A stretch of 25,687 bases of DNA from a virus, in IMG/VR virus record IMGVR_UViG_3300046000_000953, positions 1 to 25,687 of that record. The stretch is one strand, 5' to 3'. The notes under the pieces are model-generated. The model saw only the letters and a program-made list of their open reading frames with translations, did not search any database and was not told the DNA's origin. The position numbers and the translations under genes are program-made. Positions 3,782 through 25,687 of this stretch are shown here, in pieces; position 1 is the stretch's first letter; every line of letters begins with the position of its first letter.

Positions 3782-4086
3782 TTAAAAATGTTCTAATTGG
3801 ATTAGATCAAACATTTAATTGTCTTATTAAATTATCTGATGGTTGGGGGTGTCCTGATGAAATGTTGAGTGCTCGTGCGTGGAGACTTAGAGTTGAACAT
3901 CCTAGACTTAGAGTGTTTATTGATGGTATGTTTTTTTGGGATGTAGATCATTGTAAAGAATGTTATGAGATAGAAATGCATAAAGAACAATTTCCAAACA
4001 CTTATGTAAAACACCATAAATATAAGAGTAAAAAAGAAATTAAACAAGAAATGATTGACGCAGGAAAAAAAGATGGCACAACCTAA
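3772..4086 (+). CDS. Small conserved phage protein, function unknown
   Basis: This is a 104-residue protein. Its layout (a hydrophobic start MGVIKNVLIGLDQTFNCLI, then PDEMLSARAWR, then FIDGMFFWDVDHCKECYEIE, then a lysine-rich tail) recalls a family of small phage and prophage proteins of unknown function with the D-E-x-x-S-x-x-A-x-R and F-x-W-D-x-x-H-C core. It has a C-x-x-C pair (HCKEC). No clear signal peptide or transmembrane helix is present, although residues 4-20 are moderately hydrophobic. It overlaps the preceding gene by 10 bases and the gp13 start by 14 bases, so it is probably co-translated with them. I do not assign a function. Confidence 0.65.
   Translation: MGVIKNVLIGLDQTFNCLIKLSDGWGCPDEMLSARAWRLRVEHPRLRVFIDGMFFWDVDHCKECYEIEMHKEQFPNTYVKHHKYKSKKEIKQEMIDAGKKDGTT
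4062..4065 (+). promoter_or_regulatory. Shine-Dalgarno that sets the gp13 start
   Basis: AGGA lies seven bases before the ATG at 4073. This favours that ATG (protein beginning MAQPKTRKEF) over the TTG at 4055, which has no such site. Confidence 0.6.
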
Positions 4087-11208: not shown

Positions 11209-11216
11209 TATAAATA
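11209..11216 (+). promoter_or_regulatory. T4-type late promoter for gene 19
   Basis: An exact TATAAATA begins on the base after the gene 18 stop codon and lies 30 bases before the gene 19 ATG. Confidence 0.8.
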
Positions 11217-15768: not shown

Positions 15769-16770
15769 ATGTCAACAAATAAATTAATGGAAGCAGCAGC
15801 AGATATTCTTTCTGGTAGCAAGAAAAGTGCTAATGCCATGCCACCACAAAAGCTACCCGGTGCTGAATCTGTAGATTTAGGTGGACCAACACCACAGAAT
15901 GGTAAGCCAACAGGTGATTCCCAAGAAATTGATGCAACTAAAGCAGCAAAAACTGCCGTAGCACCAAAAACAAAACCATCTGCTGCTTCATCAGCACTAC
16001 CATCTACAAAGTTATCTAAAAAGAATGACGAAGATTTAGATGAAGATTATTCAGAAGATATTGATGCCATTTTTGAAGATGGAACAATTTCCGAAGACTT
16101 TAAACAAAAAGCTGCTACTATTTTTGAGGCTCGTGTTGCTGACCGTATTTCTACTATTACAGAAGAAATCGAAACACGTTATGCTGGTATGTTAGAAGAA
16201 GCTATCGAAACAATCCAAGAAGACTTATCTACAAAGGTTGATGATTATCTATCTTATGTAGTAGAACAATGGCTAGAAGAAAATGCATTAGCTGTTGAGT
16301 CAGGATTACGCACAGAATTATCAGAAGAATTTATTGCTGGTCTACGCAATTTATTCGCTGAACATTATATCGATGTTCCAGCAGAAAAAGTTAATTTGGT
16401 TGACGAACTTTCAGAGAAGGTTGTCGAACTAGAAGAGAAATTAGACGAAGAGATTGAACGTGGTGTTGAATTTAAGAAAGCACTAGTCGAATCCCGTAAA
16501 ACAGAAATTGCTCGTGATGTATGCGAAGGTCTTACAGCAACTCAAGCCGAAAAAATGAAAACACTTGTAGAGAGTGTCGAATATTCCACAGTGGAAGAAT
16601 ACAAAGGTAAGCTTGAAACAATTCGTGAGAACTACTTCCCAACAGGCATGAAAAAAGCCAGTGTGCAACAACTACATGAATATGTAGAAGAAGAAACAAA
16701 GAAACCAGCTAGTGCTGATCCATTTGTTAATGCTGTGTCAAATGCAATTTCAAAAAATAGACAATTTTAA
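15769..16770 (+). CDS. 22: Prohead scaffold protein gp22
   Basis: This 333-residue protein (T4 gp22 is 269) is the main internal scaffold around which the capsid assembles and which is later degraded by gp21. After a short start (STNKLMEAAADILSGS) comes a low-complexity A, P, K and T segment (~20-80). A long acidic, coiled-coil-like region (~85-250; EDLDEDYSEDIDAIFEDGTI, VDELSEKVVELEEKLDEEIE) follows, then the conserved C-terminal block YFPTGMKKASVQQLHEYVEE. L6-M7-E8 before AAA is a candidate gp21 cut site. AAGGAG precedes the ATG, and the gene has its own late promoter. Confidence 0.9.
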   Translation: MSTNKLMEAAADILSGSKKSANAMPPQKLPGAESVDLGGPTPQNGKPTGDSQEIDATKAAKTAVAPKTKPSAASSALPSTKLSKKNDEDLDEDYSEDIDAIFEDGTISEDFKQKAATIFEARVADRISTITEEIETRYAGMLEEAIETIQEDLSTKVDDYLSYVVEQWLEENALAVESGLRTELSEEFIAGLRNLFAEHYIDVPAEKVNLVDELSEKVVELEEKLDEEIERGVEFKKALVESRKTEIARDVCEGLTATQAEKMKTLVESVEYSTVEEYKGKLETIRENYFPTGMKKASVQQLHEYVEEETKKPASADPFVNAVSNAISKNRQF

Positions 16771-16777
16771 TTAAATA
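16770..16777 (+). promoter_or_regulatory. Probable late promoter for gene 23
   Basis: ATTAAATA begins on the last base of the gene 22 stop and lies 19 bases before the gene 23 ATG. It keeps the TAAATA core but not the usual upstream bases, so it is less certain than the TATAAATA sites. Confidence 0.5.
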
Positions 16778-16796
16778 CAAATCAAGGAGATAATAT

Positions 16797-18122
16797 ATGT
16801 ATTTGTCAGAACAACTACAAACTAAATGGGCTAGTGTACTAGACCATGCAGATTTACCAGCAATCACTGATAACTATCGCAAGGCAGTTACCGCAGTTAT
16901 TTTGGAAAATCAATTTCAAGAAATGCAAAAAGCTGGAAGCATCCTAAACGAAGCTACTCCTACTAATTCCGCTGGTACAGGTGGTTTTGGTGGTACTGCT
17001 ACTGCTGGTGGTCCAGTTGCTGGTTTTGATCCAATTCTAATCAGCTTAGTTCGTCGCTCACTTCCTAACTTAATTGCTTATGACGTTTGCGGTGTTCAAC
17101 CAATGACAGGTCCAACAGGACTAATCTTCGCAATGCGTACAATGTATGGTACTGATCGTGTATCTGGATCTGGAACAGAAGCTTTCTTTGATGAAGCTAA
17201 TTCCGCATGGTCTGGTACTGGTACACAAGCTGCTCTAGCAGTTGGTGCATCTTCTAATACCACACAAACATTTGCACAAGATGGTACTCCCGGTGCTGCT
17301 ATGGCAACTGCTGCTGCTGAAAATCTAACATTCCAAGAAATGGGATTTAGCATTGAGAAGGTTACAGTTACTGCTAAGACTCGTGCTCTAAAGGCCGAGT
17401 ATTCTCTAGAACTAGCTCAAGATTTGAAGGCAGTTCATGGTTTAGATGCTGAAACAGAATTAAGCAACATTCTTTCTTCTGAAATTCTAGCTGAAATTAA
17501 CCGCGAAGTTGTTCGTACAATCTATGGCGTGGCTAAAGTTGGTTGCCAAGTTGGTACTACACAAGTTGGTACATTCGACTTAGATACAGATTCTAATGGT
17601 CGTTGGATGGTTGAAAAAGTTAAAGGTCTAGCGTTCCAAATCGAACGTGAAGCTAATACTATCAGCAAAACAACTCGTCGTGGTAAAGGTAACGTTATGA
17701 TCGTAAGTTCTGACGTTGCTTCTGCTCTAGCAATGGCTGGTATTTTGGACTATCAATCAGCGTTACAAGGTCAAGTTAGCTTAACAGTTGATGATACTGG
17801 TAATACTTTTGCTGGTACATTGTTTGGTCGTATCAAGGTTTATATTGATCCATATGCTCCTGTATCTTCTGCTCGTGAATTCGCAGTATTAGGTTACAAG
17901 GGTTCTAATGCATATGATTCCGGTCTATTCTATTGCCCATACGTTCCTTTACAAATGGTTCGTGCTGTTGACACTAACAACTTCCAACCAAAGATTGGTT
18001 TCAAGACACGTTATGGTCTAGTAGCTAACCCATTTGCTGGTGGTACTACACAAGGTTCTGGTGCATTAACTGCAAACAGCAACTTCTATTACAGATCATT
18101 TAAAATCGCCAATTTAATGTAA
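16797..18122 (+). CDS. 23: Major capsid protein gp23
   Basis: This 441-residue precursor (T4 gp23 is 521) has the HK97 fold and builds the head shell. Landmarks are the N-terminal helix MYLSEQLQTKWASVLDHADL, then IDPILISLVRRSLPNLIAYD-type sequence at ~80 (here FDPILISLVRRSLPNLIAYD), then GVQPMTGPTGLIFAMRTMYG and the late KVYIDPYAPVSSAREFAVLG. L50-N51-E52 followed by ATPTNSAG fits the gp21 maturation site, giving a mature protein of about 389 residues. AAGGAG lies just before the ATG. A strong terminator follows, as expected for an abundant late mRNA. No separate vertex paralogue (gp24) is present in this window. Confidence 0.96.
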   Translation: MYLSEQLQTKWASVLDHADLPAITDNYRKAVTAVILENQFQEMQKAGSILNEATPTNSAGTGGFGGTATAGGPVAGFDPILISLVRRSLPNLIAYDVCGVQPMTGPTGLIFAMRTMYGTDRVSGSGTEAFFDEANSAWSGTGTQAALAVGASSNTTQTFAQDGTPGAAMATAAAENLTFQEMGFSIEKVTVTAKTRALKAEYSLELAQDLKAVHGLDAETELSNILSSEILAEINREVVRTIYGVAKVGCQVGTTQVGTFDLDTDSNGRWMVEKVKGLAFQIEREANTISKTTRRGKGNVMIVSSDVASALAMAGILDYQSALQGQVSLTVDDTGNTFAGTLFGRIKVYIDPYAPVSSAREFAVLGYKGSNAYDSGLFYCPYVPLQMVRAVDTNNFQPKIGFKTRYGLVANPFAGGTTQGSGALTANSNFYYRSFKIANLM

Positions 18123-18170
18123 GCAAACTGTAAGGTTCACTAACTAATAATAAAAAATATAAGTTGGTTT

Positions 18171-18200
18171 AAGAGGAATCCGAAAGGGTTCCTCTTTTTT
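18171..18200 (+). terminator. Strong intrinsic terminator after gene 23
   Basis: An 11-bp stem (18171-18181 with 18186-18196, one G-T wobble) is closed by a GAAA tetraloop and followed by six T residues (18195-18200). This is a textbook Rho-independent terminator 50 bases after the capsid gene. Confidence 0.92.
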
Positions 18201-18203
18201 CGT

Positions 18204-18211
18204 TCTAAATA
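18204..18211 (+). promoter_or_regulatory. T4-type late promoter for gene 3
   Basis: TCTAAATA lies directly after the terminator T-run and 17 bases before the ATG at 18229, restarting late transcription. Confidence 0.7.
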
Positions 18212-18228
18212 GACAATAAAGGAACCCT

Positions 18229-18762
18229 ATGACAATCACTACAAGAAACCCAGCAAACCCAAATTTATTTCACGCAAATAAGTTTCAGTTAAGTTTTGCA
18301 AGACAACCAAATATTCAATATTTCTGTCAATCTGTTGTTGTTCCCGGAATTTCTATTGGTGATATTCCAAAATCAAATCCATTTGTCGAGATATATTCAC
18401 CCGGCGATAAAGCGATATATGATGTATTAAATATTACCTTTTTAGTTGATGAGGATCTTTTAGCATGGATAGAAGTACATGATTGGATGAGGGCTATGAC
18501 ATTCCCAGAAAATTATAGCGAGTATAGAAATCTTAACACAATAGCAAGACCAACAATAAGAGAAGGTTTCAGTCAATTCTCAGAAGCTACTCTAACACTT
18601 TTAACATCAGCAAATCAACCAAATTATGTATTCAAATTCCATGATGTGTTTCCTATAGCAATATCATCATTTGCTCTAAGCACAACATACTCACCAGACT
18701 CAATAGTAACAGCAGACGCAACATTTAGATATGCTTGGTATGACATTGAAAAATTGAACTAA
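18229..18762 (+). CDS. 3: Tail terminator/completion protein, gp3-like (tail-tube fold)
   Basis: This is a 177-residue protein. The sequence (ANKFQLSFARQPNIQYFCQS, VVVPGISIGDIPKSNPFVEI, SPGDKAIYDVLNITFLVDED, HDWMRAMTFPENYSEYRNL) has the layout of tail-tube-like proteins of the T4 gp19/gp54/gp3 group. Length matches T4 gp3 (176), and the position between 23 and uvsY is where gene 3 lies in cyanophage-type T4 relatives. gp3 caps the tail tube at its head-proximal end. The alternative is a gp54-like tube initiator, but that is normally much longer (~320). AAAGGAA precedes the ATG. The stop codon is embedded in the next late promoter. Confidence 0.65.
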   Translation: MTITTRNPANPNLFHANKFQLSFARQPNIQYFCQSVVVPGISIGDIPKSNPFVEIYSPGDKAIYDVLNITFLVDEDLLAWIEVHDWMRAMTFPENYSEYRNLNTIARPTIREGFSQFSEATLTLLTSANQPNYVFKFHDVFPIAISSFALSTTYSPDSIVTADATFRYAWYDIEKLN

Positions 18763-18765
18763 ATA
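18758..18765 (+). promoter_or_regulatory. T4-type late promoter for uvsY, overlapping the gene 3 stop
   Basis: ACTAAATA contains the TAA stop of gene 3 (18760-18762). It lies 18 bases before the uvsY ATG, with AAGGA at 18772-18776 in between. Confidence 0.65.
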
Positions 18766-18783
18766 GCGGATAAGGACTATATT

Positions 18784-19218
18784 ATGAAACAACTTGATGA
18801 CCTATTAGAAATGTGGAAAAAAGATTCTGTTATTGATAGAACAGAACCCGGTACAGCTTTGATCGATATTCCAAAACTTCATTCAAAATACTTAAATATT
18901 CTTTCAAGACACCGTTTGTTATCTAAAGAATCTGAGTTTAAGTATAATAAAATGAAACGTTTAAAGTGGGAATATTATACTGGAAAACTTGATGATGAAA
19001 CTTTGAAACAACGTGGATGGGAACCTTTTCCTTATGTGCTTAAATCAGAACTAACAACTTATATAGAATCTGATGATGATATTAACAAACATATCGCTCA
19101 GAAAATAATGCATGACGAAATTGTTGATGTGTGTCAGAGTATCATGAAGGAATTGAATGCTAGAACATTCCAATTGAAGGATTTTATCGCGTGGGAAAGA
19201 TTCATACAAGGTGCGTGA
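18784..19218 (+). CDS. uvsY: Recombination mediator UvsY
   Basis: This 144-residue protein (T4 UvsY is 137) loads the UvsX recombinase on gp32-coated single strands. Diagnostic blocks are LDDLLEMWKKDSVIDRTEPG, then DIPKLHSKYLNILSRHRLL, then RLKWEYYTGKLDDETLKQRG followed by WEPF, and the end FQLKDFIAWERFIQGA. The order gp3-uvsY-uvsW matches cyanophage-type genomes. Expressed from a late promoter overlapping gene 3's stop; the end overlaps uvsW by 8 bases. Confidence 0.93.
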   Translation: MKQLDDLLEMWKKDSVIDRTEPGTALIDIPKLHSKYLNILSRHRLLSKESEFKYNKMKRLKWEYYTGKLDDETLKQRGWEPFPYVLKSELTTYIESDDDINKHIAQKIMHDEIVDVCQSIMKELNARTFQLKDFIAWERFIQGA

Positions 19219-20674
19219 TCTAATAATTTATAAAAAGAATGAGGCTTATGTAAGGGTTGAAGGTGATGACAGTTTCCTCCAAGAATTATCTGAGTATTTC
19301 ACTTTTTATGTTCCGGGGTATAAATTTGTTCCATCCTATAAGAATAAAATTTGGGATGGAAAAATTAGACTTTTCAACACCAGAACAAAATTGGTGTATC
19401 ACGGTCTTGTTCCTTACATAGAGGAATTTTGTAAGGAACGTGAATATTCAATAGCAATAGACCCAAAAATAAAAATAACCGCTGAATTCTCTGTACACGA
19501 AGCGAAAGAATTTATATCTACGCTAACATTACCGCATGAAATCAGAGATTATCAGTTATCATCTTTTAATAAGGCTATAAGAGATAAAAGAATATTATTA
19601 TTAAGTCCAACAGGTTCTGGTAAATCATTCATATTATATCTGATAATAAAATATCTACAACAATCAAAACAACGTGGTTTACTTATCGTTCCTACAATAA
19701 CATTAGTATCTCAGATGTTCACTGATTTCAAATCTTATGGTTATGATTCAGAAGATAATATCCATATGATTCATGCTGGTAAAGAAAAAAATGCAGATAA
19801 ATTCTTATACATATCAACATGGCAATCGATATATAATTTGGATCAGAAATATTTTGAACAATTTGATTTTGTTATTGGAGATGAATGTCACCAATTTAAA
19901 GCCAAATCATTAACATCAATATTAGAGAAATGTATTAATGCTGAACATAGAATAGGCACTACAGGAACTTTAGACGGTATGCAAACTAATCGTCTTGTTT
20001 TAGAAGGATTGTTTGGTTCTGTATACAAGGCTACAACAACTTCCGAATTGATCGAAAAGAAACAATTATCAAGTTTTAATATCAAATGTTTGGTATTAAA
20101 GTACCCAGAAGAAACGTGTAAAAAGTTAAAAAAATCTGAATATCAAGACGAATTAGATTTCATTGTTCGTAACGTAGCAAGAAATAATTTTATTAAGAAT
20201 TTAGTATTATCGCTAAACGGTAATTCATTGGTATTATTCCAATTTGTGGAAAAACATGGTAAAGAATTGTATGCAAATATTAAAGAAAAATCCAAGAATA
20301 GGAAAGTGTTTTATGTATCTGGGGAAACAGATGTTGAGGTTAGAGAATCGGTTAGGTCTATTACAGAAAATGAAAGCGATGCTATCATTGTTGCTTCCTA
20401 CGGCACTTTTAGTACTGGTATTAATATCCGCAACCTACATAACATTATATTCGCCTCACCTTCCAAATCCAGAGTTAGGAACTTACAGTCGATAGGTCGT
20501 GTTCTTAGGTTGGGTGATTCTAAGTCAAATGCTGTTTTATATGATATAGCAGATGATTTTAGGGTAGATAAGTATGTGAATCACACGATCAAACATTTTA
20601 TTGAAAGAGTTAAAATATATGATGAAGAAAAATTTGAATATAAATTCTATCAGATTGATCTAAAAAATGGTTGA
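19211..20674 (+). CDS. uvsW: UvsW-type DNA/RNA helicase
   Basis: This 487-residue superfamily 2 helicase unwinds recombination intermediates and R-loops and drives branch migration. The N-terminal domain (residues 12-66: YVRVEGDDSFLQELSEYFTF, GYKFVPSYKNKIWDGKIRLF) matches the UvsW cap that binds nucleic acid. Helicase motifs follow in order: Walker A SPTGSGKS 132-139, IVPTITLVSQ 159-168, DECH 224-227, GTTGT 249-253 and QSIGRVLR 426-433. The start is GTG at 19211 inside the uvsY end, with no good Shine-Dalgarno, so translation is probably coupled. The stop overlaps the next gene by 8 bases. Confidence 0.93.
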   Translation: MRDLIIYKKNEAYVRVEGDDSFLQELSEYFTFYVPGYKFVPSYKNKIWDGKIRLFNTRTKLVYHGLVPYIEEFCKEREYSIAIDPKIKITAEFSVHEAKEFISTLTLPHEIRDYQLSSFNKAIRDKRILLLSPTGSGKSFILYLIIKYLQQSKQRGLLIVPTITLVSQMFTDFKSYGYDSEDNIHMIHAGKEKNADKFLYISTWQSIYNLDQKYFEQFDFVIGDECHQFKAKSLTSILEKCINAEHRIGTTGTLDGMQTNRLVLEGLFGSVYKATTTSELIEKKQLSSFNIKCLVLKYPEETCKKLKKSEYQDELDFIVRNVARNNFIKNLVLSLNGNSLVLFQFVEKHGKELYANIKEKSKNRKVFYVSGETDVEVRESVRSITENESDAIIVASYGTFSTGINIRNLHNIIFASPSKSRVRNLQSIGRVLRLGDSKSNAVLYDIADDFRVDKYVNHTIKHFIERVKIYDEEKFEYKFYQIDLKNG

Positions 20675-21074
20675 ATCATTTGGAATTAAAATACTAAGAC
20701 TGCAATCTGGTGAAGATCTTATTGCTGGTGTTGTTGCTGACGAACAAGATAATTTGATATTGAGCGAACCTTTGCATCTTGTTTTTAAAAGAACAGAAAC
20801 TGGTTCTATGATGTTGATGATACCTTGGTTGCCAGTAGAACTTATTGAGGAAAACCTAGCTATTATCAGAAAAATTGATATTCTTACTGTTGTTGAGCCT
20901 ACTATTAAATTGATAGACTCTTATGATAAGGTTGTTCAGTCAATCAAAGTTAGGTTACTGGAAATAGAGAAAGAGTCTTTGCTTGATGACTACGATGAAG
21001 TAGATGATGACCCTTACGAACCTTCAGAAGAAGATCTAGAGACTCTTATGGATTCTGAGAGAGTCTTACATTAG
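20667..21074 (+). CDS. Sm-like (LSm/Hfq-fold) protein with acidic tail
   Basis: This is a 135-residue protein. Residues 7-41 (IKILRLQSGEDLIAGVVADE, then NLILSEPLHLVF) match a Sm1 motif: R-L-x-x-G-E, alternating hydrophobics, then N-L-x-L-x-x-P. Residues ~64-90 (IRKIDILTVVEPTIKLIDSY) could be the Sm2 strand pair. The C-terminal ~35 residues (DDYDEVDDDPYEPSEEDLET) are strongly acidic. Sm-like proteins of cyanophage origin are known, which supports the call. RNA binding or ring formation is inferred. It overlaps uvsW by 8 bases and is the last gene of the late unit before the early gene 55 promoter. Confidence 0.65.
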   Translation: MVESFGIKILRLQSGEDLIAGVVADEQDNLILSEPLHLVFKRTETGSMMLMIPWLPVELIEENLAIIRKIDILTVVEPTIKLIDSYDKVVQSIKVRLLEIEKESLLDDYDEVDDDPYEPSEEDLETLMDSERVLH

Positions 21075-21118
21075 TATCTACTAGTATTATAGAAGTACTT
21101 ATGAAACCCAACACAGGG

Positions 21119-21147
21119 ATTGTAACACTGCTTTAAAATCTTGTCAA
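21119..21147 (-). promoter_or_regulatory. Leftward sigma-70 promoter, antisense to the late operon
   Basis: On the minus strand a perfect TTGACA (21147-21142) is followed by 17 bases and TACAAT (21124-21119), with an extended -10 TGT directly before it. Predicted start is near 21112. There is no ORF with a good start downstream on that strand, so the transcript would be antisense to the Sm-like gene and uvsW. Confidence 0.55.
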
Positions 21148-21163
21148 GTCTTTTTTTAATTAT

Positions 21164-21192
21164 TTGCATTTATTTTTTATTTGTGTTATAAT
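21164..21192 (+). promoter_or_regulatory. Sigma-70 early promoter for gene 55
   Basis: TTGCAT (21164-21169), 17 bases, then TATAAT (21187-21192) with an extended -10 TGT. The upstream flank is T-rich. Predicted start is near 21199, leaving a short leader with GAGGG before the ATG. This would let host polymerase transcribe 55-47-46-def early. Confidence 0.85.
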
Positions 21193-21216
21193 CCCTTAAC
21201 ATTTAGAGGGAAACAT

Positions 21217-21822
21217 ATGGCAAATTACATCAACAATCCTGATTTTTTAAAAGCACTAATCGACTATAAAGAGAAGTGTGAGGAAGCACAAGCTGCTGGA
21301 AAAGAAGACCCAATCATATCAAATTATATTGGGGAATGTTTCCTAAAAATAGCAAACCATCTATCAAGAAAACCAAACTTTGCATCATACTCTTTTAGGG
21401 ACGAAATGGTATCTGATGGTATAGAAAACTGTATCATGTACTTTAGAAATTTTGATCCAACAAGGGGTAGTAATCCATTTGCATATTTTACACAAATCAT
21501 TTACTATGCTTTTTTGCGAAGAATCACCAAAGAGAAAAAGCAACTATATGTAAAGTACAAAGCAACCCAACAATACGGAATTCTTGATGAAGGTGAAATG
21601 TATGAGGATGCAGAAGGAAATATGAAGCAATTTGAAATGTATGAAAATATTTCAGAATTCATTGAAACCTTTGAGGATGCTAAGAAGAAAAAGAAAAACT
21701 TAAAATCCAAAGGTATAGAAAAATTCCTAATCGAAGACACTGTTGAAGTTTATCCTATTGAGGAAATTATCGAAGAAGTTAAAGAGTTGGAAGATTTGGA
21801 TGACAGAGAGGAATTAGAATGA
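21217..21822 (+). CDS. 55: Late-transcription sigma factor gp55
   Basis: This is a 201-residue protein (T4 gp55 is 185) that directs host RNA polymerase to late promoters. The start MANYINNPDFLKALIDYKEK and the sigma region 2-like core (SFRDEMVSDGIENCIMYFRN, FDPTRGSNPFAYFTQIIYYA, FLRRITKEKKQLYVKY) are diagnostic. After a lysine run (KKKKKNLKSKG) comes GIEKFLIED, resembling the sliding-clamp-binding end of related gp55 proteins. A further ~25 very acidic residues follow. ATG 21217 is chosen because it follows GAGGG by six bases; an upstream in-frame TTG at 21181 lies within the promoter. Its stop overlaps gene 47 by ATGA. Confidence 0.92.
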   Translation: MANYINNPDFLKALIDYKEKCEEAQAAGKEDPIISNYIGECFLKIANHLSRKPNFASYSFRDEMVSDGIENCIMYFRNFDPTRGSNPFAYFTQIIYYAFLRRITKEKKQLYVKYKATQQYGILDEGEMYEDAEGNMKQFEMYENISEFIETFEDAKKKKKNLKSKGIEKFLIEDTVEVYPIEEIIEEVKELEDLDDREELE

Positions 21823-22901
21823 GTCGCATTTGCATTCTTGGTGATACTCATTTTGGGGTTCGTGGGGATTCTGTAGAATTTCATAATTATTTTAAAAAGT
21901 TTTATGAAATTGTTTTCTTTCCTTACCTTGTCGAAAATGAGATAACCACAGTCATTCAGCTAGGAGATTTGTTTGATAGGCGTAAGTTTATCAATTTCAA
22001 TTCTTTACATCTTGCACGTAAATATTTCTTTGATAGATTTGAAGAACTTGATATTAAATTGATAACTCTATTAGGGAATCATGACATTGCTTTTAAAAAC
22101 ACATTAGAAGTTAATTCAACTGAGTTACTACTACAGGGATATAAAAATATTGAAATCTTCAACGATTTTAAAACTTTGTGGTATAATGATGTACAGTTAG
22201 ATATTGTTCCTTGGATATGTGAAGAGAATTCAGACTCCATAAGCAAACAAATTAAAGCATCAAAATCACAAATTTGTTTTGGTCATTTTGAAATTAATGG
22301 ATTTGAAATGGATCGCGGAAATGTGTTCAAAGGTGGACATATGGACAAGAAAGATCTTTTGAAGTATGATATGGTAATGTCTGGTCACTTTCATCATAAA
22401 TCAGATGATGGACACATTTATTATCTTGGAACACCTTATGAAAATACATGGAGCGATTACAATGACCCAAGAGGCTTTCATATTTTTGATGTGAACACTC
22501 GTGCATTAGAATTTATTCAAAATCCATTTCAAATATTCCACAAGATTTCATATGATGATAAAGAACAGGATTCTAAATTCTGGAATTCTTTTAACTTTGA
22601 TTCTAAGAAAGACACATACGTTAAAATTGTGGTTGTTAATAAAACTGATCCATATTTATTTGATACGGTCTTGGATAAGTTGTATAAAGCTGGTGTGACT
22701 GATGTAGGTATTGTCGAAGATTTCACCGAGATATCTGTTGATGATGATGAAATGGATGAATCATTGAATCAAGCAGAAGATACATTAACAATTATGAATA
22801 AAGCTATCGATAGTATGCAACATGACCTTGATACAAACAAGTTGAAGAGTATGCTTAGAGAAGTCTTTGTAGAAGCTATTAATAAGGATAAAGCCGAATG
22901 A
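21819..22901 (+). CDS. 47: Recombination nuclease subunit gp47 (Mre11/SbcD-like)
   Basis: This 360-residue protein (T4 gp47 is 339) is the metallophosphoesterase partner of gp46, resecting double-strand ends for recombination-dependent replication. Phosphoesterase motifs run in order: GDTH 8-11, GDLFDRR 49-55, GNHD 86-89, then CFGHFEINGFEM and MSGHFHHK with the metal-binding histidines, and LGTPYENTW. The C-terminal end after ~300 is acidic and then helical and probably binds the gp46 coiled-coil base. ATGA overlaps join it to gene 55 upstream and gene 46 downstream, giving tight translational coupling. Confidence 0.95.
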   Translation: MSRICILGDTHFGVRGDSVEFHNYFKKFYEIVFFPYLVENEITTVIQLGDLFDRRKFINFNSLHLARKYFFDRFEELDIKLITLLGNHDIAFKNTLEVNSTELLLQGYKNIEIFNDFKTLWYNDVQLDIVPWICEENSDSISKQIKASKSQICFGHFEINGFEMDRGNVFKGGHMDKKDLLKYDMVMSGHFHHKSDDGHIYYLGTPYENTWSDYNDPRGFHIFDVNTRALEFIQNPFQIFHKISYDDKEQDSKFWNSFNFDSKKDTYVKIVVVNKTDPYLFDTVLDKLYKAGVTDVGIVEDFTEISVDDDEMDESLNQAEDTLTIMNKAIDSMQHDLDTNKLKSMLREVFVEAINKDKAE

Positions 22902-24610
22902 TAGAATTTTGTGATATAAAATACAAAAATCTCTTAGCCTCTGGTAATTACTGGACAGAGATAAAATTAAATGAAAATCAGAATACACTAATTATTGGTG
23001 GAAATGGTTCTGGAAAGAGTACCGTATTAGATGCTATTTGTTTGGCATTGTTTGGTAAGGCTTTTCGTAATATTAATAAGCCAGCATTACTAAACAGCAT
23101 AAACCAAAAAGATTGTGTCGTTGAAGTAAATTTTAAGACCAATGGAAAATCATATAAAGTAGTTCGTGGTATCAAACCAAACATATTTGAAATTTATCAG
23201 GACGGTATTCTATTAAATCAAGAAGCATCGTCAAAGGATTATCAGGAAATCCTTGAAAAGACTATATTAAAGTTTAATTTCAAATCATTCACACAGATTG
23301 TTATTCTTGGTTCAGCTTCCTTTGTTCCATTCATGCAATTGTCATCAACAGATCGCAGAACAATTATTGAGGACTTATTGGATATTCAGATTTTCTCTAC
23401 AATGAATAACATCATTAAAGACAAGATATCAAACAATAAGGATTTGATTGTTGAAAAGAAAAACAGTATTGAATTGATCCAACAAAAATATAATCTAGAG
23501 AAGAAACATCTGGATTCACTTCAACAAGACAATGAAGGAAAGATTATAGAATATCAAACAGAAATTGAAACTTCTAATGACACAGTTACTAAATTAATTG
23601 AAGAAAACGAACACTTCTTAACCGTGTGTGAAGGTTTACAAGTTAAAATTGATCAAAAGATAGATTCAGAAAATAAAATTAAAAAATTAACTAAGATCGA
23701 ATCTACCGTTGAAAGTAAAGTATCAAAACACAAGAGCGATATTACATTCTTCCAACATAATGATAATTGTCCAACATGTAGACAAACTATTGACTCAACT
23801 TTTAAAGAAGCTGAGTTAGGGAAACTACAATCAGAAGTTAATGAGTTTACAGATGGTTTGAAAAAATTAGAACTTAAACTTCTAGAGGAACAAGAGATTA
23901 TTAATGAAATTGTAGATAAACAAAAACAGTTTCAAAAGATTCAGATCAAGGTGGCTTCAAACAACACAGCTATTAAAGAAACTAATAGATATATTACAAA
24001 GATTAATGGTCAAATTGAAGGTATTAAAAACAGAAAGATAGTCAATGAATGTGATGAAATTGTTTTAACAGAACTAAGTGGTCAGTTAGACACTTTGAAA
24101 TTTGATTTGAAAGAATTGATTGATGAAAAAGTTTATTATGATACTGCTATTACATTGTTAAAAGATTCTGGTATTAAGACAAAGATCGTTAAACAATATT
24201 TGCCAATTATCAATAAACTTGTTAATAAATATCTCACTGCTTTGGACTTCTTTGTAAATTTTAACCTTGACGAATCCTTTAAAGAAACTATTAAGTCTAG
24301 ACACCGTGATGATTTTACATACAACAATTTCTCAGAAGGCGAAAAAACTCGTATAGATATGAGTCTAATGCTTGCTTGGAGGGCAGTGGCAAAATTGAAG
24401 AATTCTACAAATACTAATCTATTATTCCTTGATGAAATTTTTGATTCTTCATTGGATGCCACTGGTGCAGATTATTTGATGAACATTCTGCATATTTTAG
24501 AGGATGTTAATTTATTTGTAATATCCCATAGAGGTGATATTTTACAAGATAAATTTGCTAATATAATTAAATTTGATAAGGTTAAAAACTTCTCAAGAAT
24601 GACAAAATAA
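22898..24610 (+). CDS. 46: Recombination nuclease ATPase gp46 (Rad50/SbcC-like)
   Basis: This 570-residue protein (T4 gp46 is 560) is the SMC-like ATPase of the gp46/47 complex. Walker A GGNGSGKST lies at 34-42 and is followed by VLDAICLALFGKAFRNIN. Two coiled-coil arms (~180-285 and ~300-430) flank a zinc-hook CPTC at 291-294. The ABC signature FSEGEKTR starts at F478, and Walker B LLFLDE with D512 and E513 is followed by the D-loop SSLDATG. ISHRGD provides the H-loop. All catalytic elements are present. The stop overlaps the Shine-Dalgarno of the peptide deformylase gene. Confidence 0.95.
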   Translation: MIEFCDIKYKNLLASGNYWTEIKLNENQNTLIIGGNGSGKSTVLDAICLALFGKAFRNINKPALLNSINQKDCVVEVNFKTNGKSYKVVRGIKPNIFEIYQDGILLNQEASSKDYQEILEKTILKFNFKSFTQIVILGSASFVPFMQLSSTDRRTIIEDLLDIQIFSTMNNIIKDKISNNKDLIVEKKNSIELIQQKYNLEKKHLDSLQQDNEGKIIEYQTEIETSNDTVTKLIEENEHFLTVCEGLQVKIDQKIDSENKIKKLTKIESTVESKVSKHKSDITFFQHNDNCPTCRQTIDSTFKEAELGKLQSEVNEFTDGLKKLELKLLEEQEIINEIVDKQKQFQKIQIKVASNNTAIKETNRYITKINGQIEGIKNRKIVNECDEIVLTELSGQLDTLKFDLKELIDEKVYYDTAITLLKDSGIKTKIVKQYLPIINKLVNKYLTALDFFVNFNLDESFKETIKSRHRDDFTYNNFSEGEKTRIDMSLMLAWRAVAKLKNSTNTNLLFLDEIFDSSLDATGADYLMNILHILEDVNLFVISHRGDILQDKFANIIKFDKVKNFSRMTK

Positions 24611-24620
24611 GGAGATAATT

Positions 24621-25193
24621 ATGGAAAAAATGATAACTATTGACACTGGTACTGGTACGCTAATAGACGAACCACCACAAGCTTTACAATTATTCAATGA
24701 GCATTCACCGCTACTAAAAGAAGTGATGCCAGAATATAATGGTAAGCTTCCGAACAAGGATATGACTAAATTGGTAAAAAATCTTAAATTTACTAGAAAG
24801 TTGTATAGTGGTGTTGGGTTATCAGCAAATCAATGCGGTATAAAGGCAAGGGTATTTGTTCTTGGTACTGATGATTATGATCTTGTTTGTATTAATCCAA
24901 AAATTGTAAAACGCTCAGAAGATATTGTAAAAGATAAAGAGGGATGTTTGTCTTTTCCCGGTCTATTCGCCAACGTTGACAGATCTTCTTGGGTTGAGGT
25001 TGAGTTTAAGGACGAAGGTGGAAATTTGAAAACCATGAAGGTTGATGGTGTAACTGCTCGTTGTTTTGAACATGAGTTGGATCATTTGAATGGCGTTAGG
25101 TTTGTAGACCATCTAGGACCAGTTGCTTTGAAGTTAGCAAGACAAAAGCAACAAAAATTGATTAAAAGGACTGTTCGCTCAAAAAACCATTGA
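24621..25193 (+). CDS. def: Peptide deformylase
   Basis: This 190-residue metalloenzyme removes the formyl group from the first methionine of nascent proteins. All three family motifs are visible: GVGLSANQ at 64-71 (usual form GxGLAAxQ, here S-A), EGCLS at 107-111 with metal ligand C109, and HELDH at 151-155 with H151, E152 and H155. An N-terminal extension of ~20 residues precedes the usual domain start. Phage deformylases are known from T4-like cyanophages. AAGGAG lies six bases before the ATG and overlaps the gene 46 stop, so it is part of the 55-47-46 operon. Its own stop codon falls inside the -35 box of the next promoter. Confidence 0.95.
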   Translation: MEKMITIDTGTGTLIDEPPQALQLFNEHSPLLKEVMPEYNGKLPNKDMTKLVKNLKFTRKLYSGVGLSANQCGIKARVFVLGTDDYDLVCINPKIVKRSEDIVKDKEGCLSFPGLFANVDRSSWVEVEFKDEGGNLKTMKVDGVTARCFEHELDHLNGVRFVDHLGPVALKLARQKQQKLIKRTVRSKNH

Positions 25194-25218
25194 CATTAGT
25201 GAATCGGTGACATATAAT
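25190..25218 (+). promoter_or_regulatory. Consensus sigma-70 promoter for the metallopeptidase-like gene
   Basis: Perfect TTGACA (25190-25195), 17-base spacer and perfect TATAAT (25213-25218). The -35 box contains the TGA stop of def. The next ATG is 28 bases past the -10, with AAGGA at 25234-25238. Confidence 0.9.
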
Positions 25219-25246
25219 TGATCCATACACAAAAAGGAACATTTAT

Positions 25247-25687
25247 ATGTCATTCACCGTAGAATCTAAGTCTCAGTTAGCTAAATTGATGGCAACCGAG
25301 AACATTACAGTACAACACTGCAAAGTTCGTACTGCATCTTTTGACGTTAAGAATCGTGTTCTTAGACTCCCAATCTGGAAAGAAATGACAGGAGTTATGT
25401 ATGACCTATTGTGTGGTCATGAAATTGGTCATGCTCTATACACTCCATTAGAAGGTTGGCATGATGCTGTTGTAAAAAATAACAAAGGTAAAAATTACAA
25501 ATTCTTCTTAAACGTTGTGGAAGATGCACGTATTGAAAAGAAGGTACAACGTAGGTATCCCGGATTACGTTCATCTTTTATTCATGCATACGATGAACTT
25601 TTTGATCGTGATTTTTTTGGTATCAAACATTCTGATATCAATAAAAAAGTATTTGTTGATCGTTTAAATGTGTATACAAAATCTTCC
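25247..25687 (+). CDS. Zinc-metallopeptidase-like protein (3' end missing)
   Basis: The frame is open for 147 codons from ATG 25247 to the right window edge, so the gene is truncated. AAGGA eight bases upstream and a consensus promoter support the start. Residues 58-62, HEIGH in LLCGHEIGHALYTPL, form a zinc-binding H-E-x-x-H. Residues 89-107 (NVVEDARIEKKVQRRYPG) supply E93 and D94 as possible third ligands. This arrangement recalls the metallopeptidase-like N-terminus of CobT/VWA-type proteins found in T4-like marine phages. If so, a von Willebrand A domain would be expected beyond the window. Substrate and role are unknown. Confidence 0.75.
   Translation, partial: MSFTVESKSQLAKLMATENITVQHCKVRTASFDVKNRVLRLPIWKEMTGVMYDLLCGHEIGHALYTPLEGWHDAVVKNNKGKNYKFFLNVVEDARIEKKVQRRYPGLRSSFIHAYDELFDRDFFGIKHSDINKKVFVDRLNVYTKSS

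Follow-up and report, generated by a model that had tools for sequence, protein, structure and literature searches.

Antisense RNA in lytic phages and early promoters of sigma-70 type are both known kinds of element. In the Pseudomonas phage PAK_P3, most antisense RNAs map to the structural region (15 of 20); the antisense RNAs are stronger early in infection, and the authors of that report propose that early antisense RNAs shut down late genes at this stage (PMC4933390). Among T4-like cyanophages, S-PM2 makes the antisense RNA CfrI (PMC2984593, PMC5931967), and in S-PM2 and Syn9 sigma-70-like promoters serve the early genes, presumably transcribed by the host polymerase in unmodified form (PMC2984593). 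The latter source, a review, states that T4-like cyanophages lack the T4 regulators Alt, ModA, ModB, MotA and Asi, and it regards the way in which their early and middle transcription is controlled as unclear. Strand-specific data sets exist for S-PM2 (PMC5931967; ArrayExpress E-MTAB-5840, with libraries that pool 1-9 h) and for P-HM2 (PMC5082946, with counts for sense and antisense). The Escherichia coli RNA GadY is transcribed from a promoter in the spacer between two genes and overlaps the 3' end of one of the pair in antisense (PMC7368042).

The locus described here differs from each of these systems. It lies in a 25,687-base virus record, a T4-like phage fragment of cyanophage type (hereafter, the whole stretch, the window), in which a leftward sigma-70-type promoter (P_L) stands between an Sm-like gene and gp55, the gene for the late sigma factor. 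The PAK_P3 RNAs were measured, and 19 of the 20 are intragenic, whereas P_L is one predicted promoter at a fixed junction across many phages, known from sequence; by analogy, PAK_P3 provides a precedent, backed by measurement, for antisense transcripts that cover late genes early in infection. CfrI, as described in the sources cited, sits at psbA and a homing endonuclease gene, with which it is co-expressed, and not at gp55. GadY triggers cleavage of a two-gene mRNA; P_L is not known to cause anything of the kind, and a conserved RNA body was not found there. Compared with the early promoters of T4-like cyanophages, P_L differs in pointing away from any gene and in carrying a conserved block across the start site. 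What appears to be new is that one antisense promoter with no ORF is maintained at a single junction across the group, often sharing its -35 element with the promoter of the late sigma factor. A literature search by title and abstract found no description of an antisense promoter at the gp55 junction; the search did not cover the Syn9 transcriptome paper, the likeliest place, so a description may be there. P_L, present in 129 of 148 sampled loci, is a specific and testable candidate piece of early and middle transcription control in cyanophages, with exact positions. If the antisense reading is true, it would show that lytic phages can retain antisense transcription as a conserved element of their programme, and that such transcription need not be noise.

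Two divergent promoters between the Sm-like gene and gp55

Genes in this part of the window all run rightward, in the order gp23 (16797), tail tube (18229), uvsY, uvsW, Sm-like, gp55, gp47, gp46 and peptide deformylase. The Sm-like protein matches PDB entries 7xm1, a TIP60 mutant (E 1.2e-4), and 3by7 (E 6e-4), the latter of which we take to be an Sm-like protein of cyanophage type. The label that PHROG and GenBank give to the family, methylamine utilization, may mislead; the sequence matches are to 3by7 and the TIP60 cage protein. Just after gp23 lies a strong terminator-like hairpin of 11 pairs (18171-18196, plus strand).

Direct reading of the sequence and a promoter scan both bear out the initial annotation in its claim of two divergent sigma-70-type promoters at 21119-21192 (Table 1). 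The leftward promoter had been described as TTGACA-17-TACAAT with an extended -10 TG, and this description holds: P_L agrees with the sigma-70 hexamers (TTGACA, TATAAT, 16-18 nt apart) at 11 of 12 positions. It ranks second among the promoter-like sites listed for 16001-25687, and the RNA start predicted from its geometry falls at the same position as in the initial annotation. The rightward promoter, P_R, had been given as TTGCAT-17-TATAAT serving gp55. Its extended -10 element stands, and its -35 element is less secure, TTGCAT matching at only 3 of 6 positions and the scan favouring TTTGCA with an 18-nt spacer (4 of 6). Since neither -35 candidate matches well, P_R is better named an extended -10 promoter. 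The window P_R uses a -35 element other than the quasi-palindrome CTTGTCAAG; the -35 elements of P_L and P_R start 22 bp apart here, with no shared core. At the end of the peptide deformylase gene the window also contains a perfect rightward TTGACA-17-TATAAT (12/12; 25190-25218, plus strand).

Table 1. Features at and near the junction (window coordinates, except for Syn9)
Feature	Position	Strand	Basis or remark
Late-promoter-like CTAAATA, 25 nt before uvsY	18759..18765	+	Relaxed form of core NATAAATA
uvsY	18784..19218	+	phrog_231
uvsW helicase, second gene under predicted leftward RNA	19211..20674	+	phrog_16 DNA helicase, E 8.4e-97
Sm-like gene (T4-GC139 type), first gene under predicted leftward RNA	20667..21074	+	phrog_527, phrog_471
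Initiation block CCCTGTGTTGGGTTTCAT, local form of conserved AACTCTGTnnGGGTTCAAGG	21101..21118	-	By eye against relatives' profile; altered
Predicted leftward RNA start, 6-7 nt beyond P_L -10	21112	-	Inferred from promoter geometry
P_L -10 hexamer TACAAT	21119..21124	-	Sequence and scan; counterpart in 129/148 relatives
P_L extended -10 (TGT), TG one base upstream of -10	21125..21127	-	Sequence and scan
Quasi-palindrome CTTGTCAAG	21140..21148	.	Supplies both -35 elements in about half of relatives with both promoters
P_L -35 hexamer TTGACA	21142..21147	-	Sequence and scan; 17-nt spacer to -10
A7 tract immediately before P_L, placed like an UP element	21151..21157	-	Sequence; role inferred
P_R weak -35, TTGCAT (17-nt spacer) or TTTGCA (18-nt spacer)	21164-21169 or 21163-21168	+	Sequence and scan
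P_R extended -10 TGT-TATAAT for gp55	21184..21192	+	TATAAT at 21187-21192
gp55 late sigma factor	21217..21822	+	phrog_234, E 1.1e-59; start ATG 21217
Syn9 P_L	123705-123733	-	Promoter search; leftward

Promoter-like sites are not enriched in the region, since 41 were found in 16001-25687 against 45.3 expected. The pattern TTGACA-N16-18-TACAAT occurs once in the window, where 0.09 occurrences are expected, and is present in 9 of 100 shuffled windows. Judged from the window alone, P_L could be due to chance, and the case for it is modest; for this reason relatives were gathered.

Conservation of the leftward promoter in relatives

Loci were collected by the gp55 of the window (80), of P-TIM68 (80) and of Syn1 (80) and from 12 named phages, making 253 with the window itself. 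Of these, 250 had 150 nt upstream, and they yielded 148 k-mer-distinct representatives, which are still related by descent. P_L was scored as present at 10.5 or above, that is, with at least 10 matches and a 17-nt spacer, or at least 11 matches and a spacer of 16 or 18 nt, no more than 150 nt from gp55. The initial annotation had named conservation in relatives as a check on the promoters; with that check run, a minus-strand promoter at threshold was found within 150 nt of gp55 in 129 of the 148 non-redundant loci, as compared to 1.55% of dinucleotide shuffles. Applied to 31 further 150-nt bins of these loci, the search gave 0-9.4%. When spacers of 14-20 nt were allowed with no preference, the 17-nt spacer was best in 119 of the 130 relatives that reached 10 matches. 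An unscored block over the predicted RNA start, AACTCTGTnnGGGTTCAAGG, is also conserved in the relatives with P_L: counted from the start of the -10 element, T (97%), G (80%) and T (80%) occupy +11 to +13, and T (90%) occupies +20. The near-fixed letters of the -35 and -10 elements in the P_L alignment are so partly by construction, since that score served to select the loci and the -10 element had to contain A2 and T6; the shuffle comparison, the free spacer and the unscored block are not. We conclude that conservation in relatives lifts P_L above chance and that the leftward promoter, judged by this conservation, is real.

Among the 15 named phages that have an Sm-like/gp55 spacer, 14 carry P_L (MED4-213, P-TIM68, P-RSM4, Syn1, ACG-2014f, DSL-LC02, HTVC008M, Mosig, S-PM2, P-SSM2, P-HM2, Syn9, DLP6 and C48C1); the hosts are cyanobacterial, Pelagibacter and Stenotrophomonas, and the HTVC008M promoter is perfect (12/12). 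Melnitz falls below the threshold, with TTGACA 6 nt from its -10 element. No P_L at a score of 9.5 or above was found in the more distant Ochrobactrum OC, Yut2, Vibrio D481, Rhizobium AF3 and T4, which have another arrangement upstream of gp55. The 19 representatives below threshold consist of five with an inserted gene, four with gp55 displaced, five freshwater loci with TTGACA 4-5 nt from the -10 element, three with weaker P_L matches only (L073, L121, L122), Melnitz, and L106, which is counted as lacking P_L in the total of 129 (its gp55 start is mis-set) but carries it.

Rearranged junctions show how P_L behaves when its neighbours part. In fourteen loci the Sm-like gene and gp55 are separated by an inserted gene; P_L lies on the Sm-like side in eight of them (L005, L019, L029, L039, L050, L052, L054, L059) and at gp55, not at the Sm-like side, in L033, and full-score P_L was not found in the remaining five (L017, L018, L023, L053, L074), three of which (L017, L018, L074) have a shortened form at the Sm-like side. 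Where gp55 is displaced by a large cluster, P_L is absent from the Sm-like end in all four contigs, staying at gp55 in L080 and being lost there in L070, L075 and L078; P_L is therefore not indispensable. In a freshwater group, TTGACA lies only 4-5 nt from a leftward -10 element, upstream of gp55 in L040, L041, L045, L048 and L076 and upstream of the inserted gene in L017. At this spacing it is useless as a -35 element; the -10 element is extended in all of these loci but L076. As the plus strand of these loci retains TGTCAAG, the box may serve a second purpose there.

P_L is commoner than P_R at equal score (129/148 vs. 104/148, the P_R counts including marginal matches), and 97 representatives have both at 10.5 or above. 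Fourteen loci have P_L with P_R below 9.5, although two of them (L248 and L243) may hold a weak P_R that the score misses, and seven have P_R without a full-score P_L; these loci do not support P_L as a mere mirror of P_R. Eleven of the 14 loci with no scored P_R, all of them in the freshwater set, have the P_L -10 element only 46-58 nt before the gp55 start. In contrast to the window, the relatives do contain divergent pairs with a shared core: in 49 of the 97 pairs the -35 elements are offset by -1, TTGTCA rightward and TTGACA leftward being drawn from one TTGTCAA, and in 65 of the 97 they start no more than 10 bp apart. On a FastTree phylogeny of 96 UvsW proteins, the distribution of P_R takes 10 changes and that of P_L takes 6 (counted by starred branches, at least 7 and at least 4); eight rows of this tree were scored as without P_L, of which three (L005, L050, L059) actually have it beside Sm-like.

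The predicted leftward RNA and its surroundings

The P_L -10 element lies a median of 28 nt from the Sm-like stop codon (n = 126), so a leftward RNA would be antisense almost from its start. Placed 7 nt beyond the -10 element, the predicted minus-strand start falls near 123,698 in Syn9, 84,439 in S-PM2 and 120,709 in P-HM2. The earlier claim that this promoter has no ORF to serve agrees with what we find, no evident ORF being present in the window or in relatives. The nearest minus-strand ORF of at least 60 aa leftward of P_L has its reading-frame start at 20085, and shorter ones in 20300-21115 measure 22-32 aa, the 32-aa one beginning upstream of the predicted RNA start. P_L and its predicted RNA thus have cis-antisense geometry and no evident ORF. 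A leftward small protein was considered and rejected: an ATG ORF of at least 20 aa is found in the first 250 nt in 66 of 121 relatives as compared to 59 of 95 in the control, and it is preceded by an SD-like site in 1 of 121.

The position of the late promoters is in accord with the late/early boundary that the initial annotation had placed at the junction. Late-promoter cores precede the tail-tube gene and uvsY, and in 129 relatives the 60-nt stretches ahead of gp55 contain none. PMC2984593 gives the core as NATAAATA; besides the copy at uvsY (Table 1), CTAAATA is found at 18205 (plus strand) before the tail-tube gene, 24-25 nt ahead as for uvsY, and TATAAATA occurs in the window at 11209, 11788 and 15738. 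A T4-type late promoter, with a TATAAATA-like -10 element, was sought as [AC]TAAATA and was found in none of 129 P_L leaders and none of 129 60-nt stretches upstream of gp55. The absence of the late core from P_L is as expected of an early antisense promoter.

No terminator-like hairpin was found in the 180 nt before gp55 at any of 148 loci, and leftward of P_L terminator-like sites within 1 kb were found in 2 of 116 loci as compared to 6 of 103 in the control. Because terminators are absent before gp55 and rare leftward, both head-on polymerase collision and an antisense RNA that covers Sm-like and uvsW are possible. To our knowledge, cyanobacteria are without Rho, a lack that would let antisense RNA run far.

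In three clades, no consistent excess of synonymous constraint was seen in the Sm-like and uvsW codons, a result that fits plain cis-antisense RNA but lends it no positive support. A functional RNA body inside these two genes was rejected, there being no consistent drop in synonymous diversity; single 20-codon bins fall to 0.70-0.77, mostly at places not adjoining P_L.

Possible roles of the leftward promoter, and its copies elsewhere

We give an even chance to the reading that P_L is an early host-polymerase antisense promoter that opposes the late uvsY-uvsW-Sm-like operon and goes off as gp55 takes over. The initial annotation had likewise proposed early antisense RNA across the Sm-like gene and uvsW that lowers late-gene expression, a proposal that the present findings support in part. 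According to this reading, P_L would be a functional sigma-70-type promoter, read early by unmodified host RNA polymerase, and its RNA would begin about 20 nt beyond the Sm-like stop codon and run antisense to Sm-like, to uvsW and perhaps to more of the late operon. Acting through duplex RNA, opposing polymerases or both, this transcription would keep RNA that leaks early from the late operon from use or completion. gp55, made from the divergent P_R or from upstream, would then redirect polymerase to late promoters, whereupon P_L would lose polymerase and the late operon would be released. Transcription from P_L, its early timing, its reach to uvsW and the repression of late genes are steps that we infer. 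The model is based on the conservation of P_L, its position and direction, the absence of an evident ORF and of late-promoter cores, and the near lack of terminators; the conservation in particular suggests antisense RNA that restrains late genes early in infection. Further points in its favour are the place of P_L at the Sm-like side in 8 of 14 inserted-gene loci, its occurrence without scored P_R in 14 loci and a copy in L385 that is again antisense; in addition, P_L leaders lack the late-promoter core that 5 of 6 gene-driving copies elsewhere carry. Points against it are the 19 of 148 loci below threshold, the 7 loci having P_R without full-score P_L, the placement in L033 and the losses at displaced gp55. 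The model provides no explanation for the initiation block.

Promoter competition and polymerase collision are the main rivals, and either could act together with antisense repression. If polymerase at P_L excludes polymerase from an overlapping P_R, P_L would set the dose or timing of gp55 and the leftward RNA would be a by-product. This accords with the 49 of 97 pairs whose -35 elements share bases (offset -1) and the 65 of 97 whose -35 elements start within 10 bp of each other; however, P_L occurs without a scored P_R in 14 loci (weak ones may be present in L248 and L243), an inserted gene separates P_L from gp55 in 8 of the 14 loci having one, and the conserved block spans the RNA start and first transcribed bases, which occlusion does not need. 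On balance we consider competition unlikely. We consider it distinctly unlikely that P_L marks a boundary at which polymerases moving leftward keep rightward transcription from running on into the early gp55-gp47-gp46 genes. The lack of terminator-like hairpins in the 180 nt before gp55 (0 of 148) and the head-on placement of P_L at the 3' end of the late operon favour such a boundary, but read-through should peak late, when, we infer, a host-sigma promoter should be weakest. The initial annotation had offered a block on late read-through into gp55 as one role of the leftward promoter. Collision as such is possible, with no terminator before gp55, but a block is unlikely to be the sole role, because 8 of 14 inserted-gene loci have P_L next to Sm-like and far from gp55.

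Three further explanations carry much less weight with us. A regulatory RNA with a sequence-specific role of its own, its conserved 5' end being the active part, could account for the conservation of the initiation block and for the sharing of the block by copies before other genes. Those copies, however, suggest that the block belongs to the promoter type, and terminators that would give a short RNA are rare (2 of 116), no common fold was seen by eye in 14 leaders, the window has no Rfam match and there is no consistent synonymous constraint downstream; on the terminator, fold and Rfam results a short structured RNA or small regulatory RNA gene was rejected, and we hold the explanation to be highly improbable. 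R-loops prime replication at T4 origins. The leftward RNA might do likewise near the genes for UvsY and UvsW, which P_L adjoins, and the detrended skew minimum is on gp55 in P-TIM68; a single origin has been predicted for Syn9, in a passage that does not give its place (PMC2984593). In the other five of six genomes the skew minimum is elsewhere, in HTVC008M 19 kb away with the gp55 value near the minimum, and this indirect evidence, with the minimum at gp55 in only one of six genomes, does not favour a replication origin at P_L; we find it very hard to credit. Hardest of all to credit is that P_L is a chance occurrence or a functionless evolutionary leftover: promoter-like sites in the window are indeed no commoner than in shuffles, but the count of 129 of 148 against 1.55% of shuffles, the unique position and the conservation of the unscored block contradict a chance origin.

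Another reading, which we regard as doubtful, is that P_L and P_R act as a self-timing toggle shared by the T4-like phages that infect cyanobacteria, Pelagibacter and some other bacteria. Overlapping -35 elements would force polymerase to choose between the late sigma factor and antisense transcription into the late operon, and the sigma factor would then take polymerase from both promoters and open the late genes.

The promoter and its block also occur together at other places. A scan of viral contigs for the promoter plus block matched at least 120 stretches, and of 80 classified among the matches listed, 73 are divergent at gp55, 3 are antisense to Sm-like without gp55 in reach and 4 are elsewhere. 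A late-promoter core is just downstream in five of six gene-driving copies elsewhere (S-PM2, Syn1, DSL-LC02, L354 and L380; not L386). A host-derived promoter was rejected, the promoter plus block having one match in genome contigs, on a 4.4-kb MAG contig with a relative of the S-PM2 baseplate lysozyme gene. A second P_L-type copy follows the baseplate lysozyme gene in S-PM2 (162737; L311), in Syn1 (16507; L312) and in L434, which holds a relative of that gene. The S-PM2 and Syn1 copies read into small genes (T4-GC 49 in the former; 649 then 49 in the latter) and have a late-promoter core downstream of the promoter. In L385, a P_L-type copy (3971-4014, plus strand) is antisense to the 3' end of a ferrochelatase-like/2OG-oxygenase block, 17 nt beyond the stop codon of the ferrochelatase-like gene.
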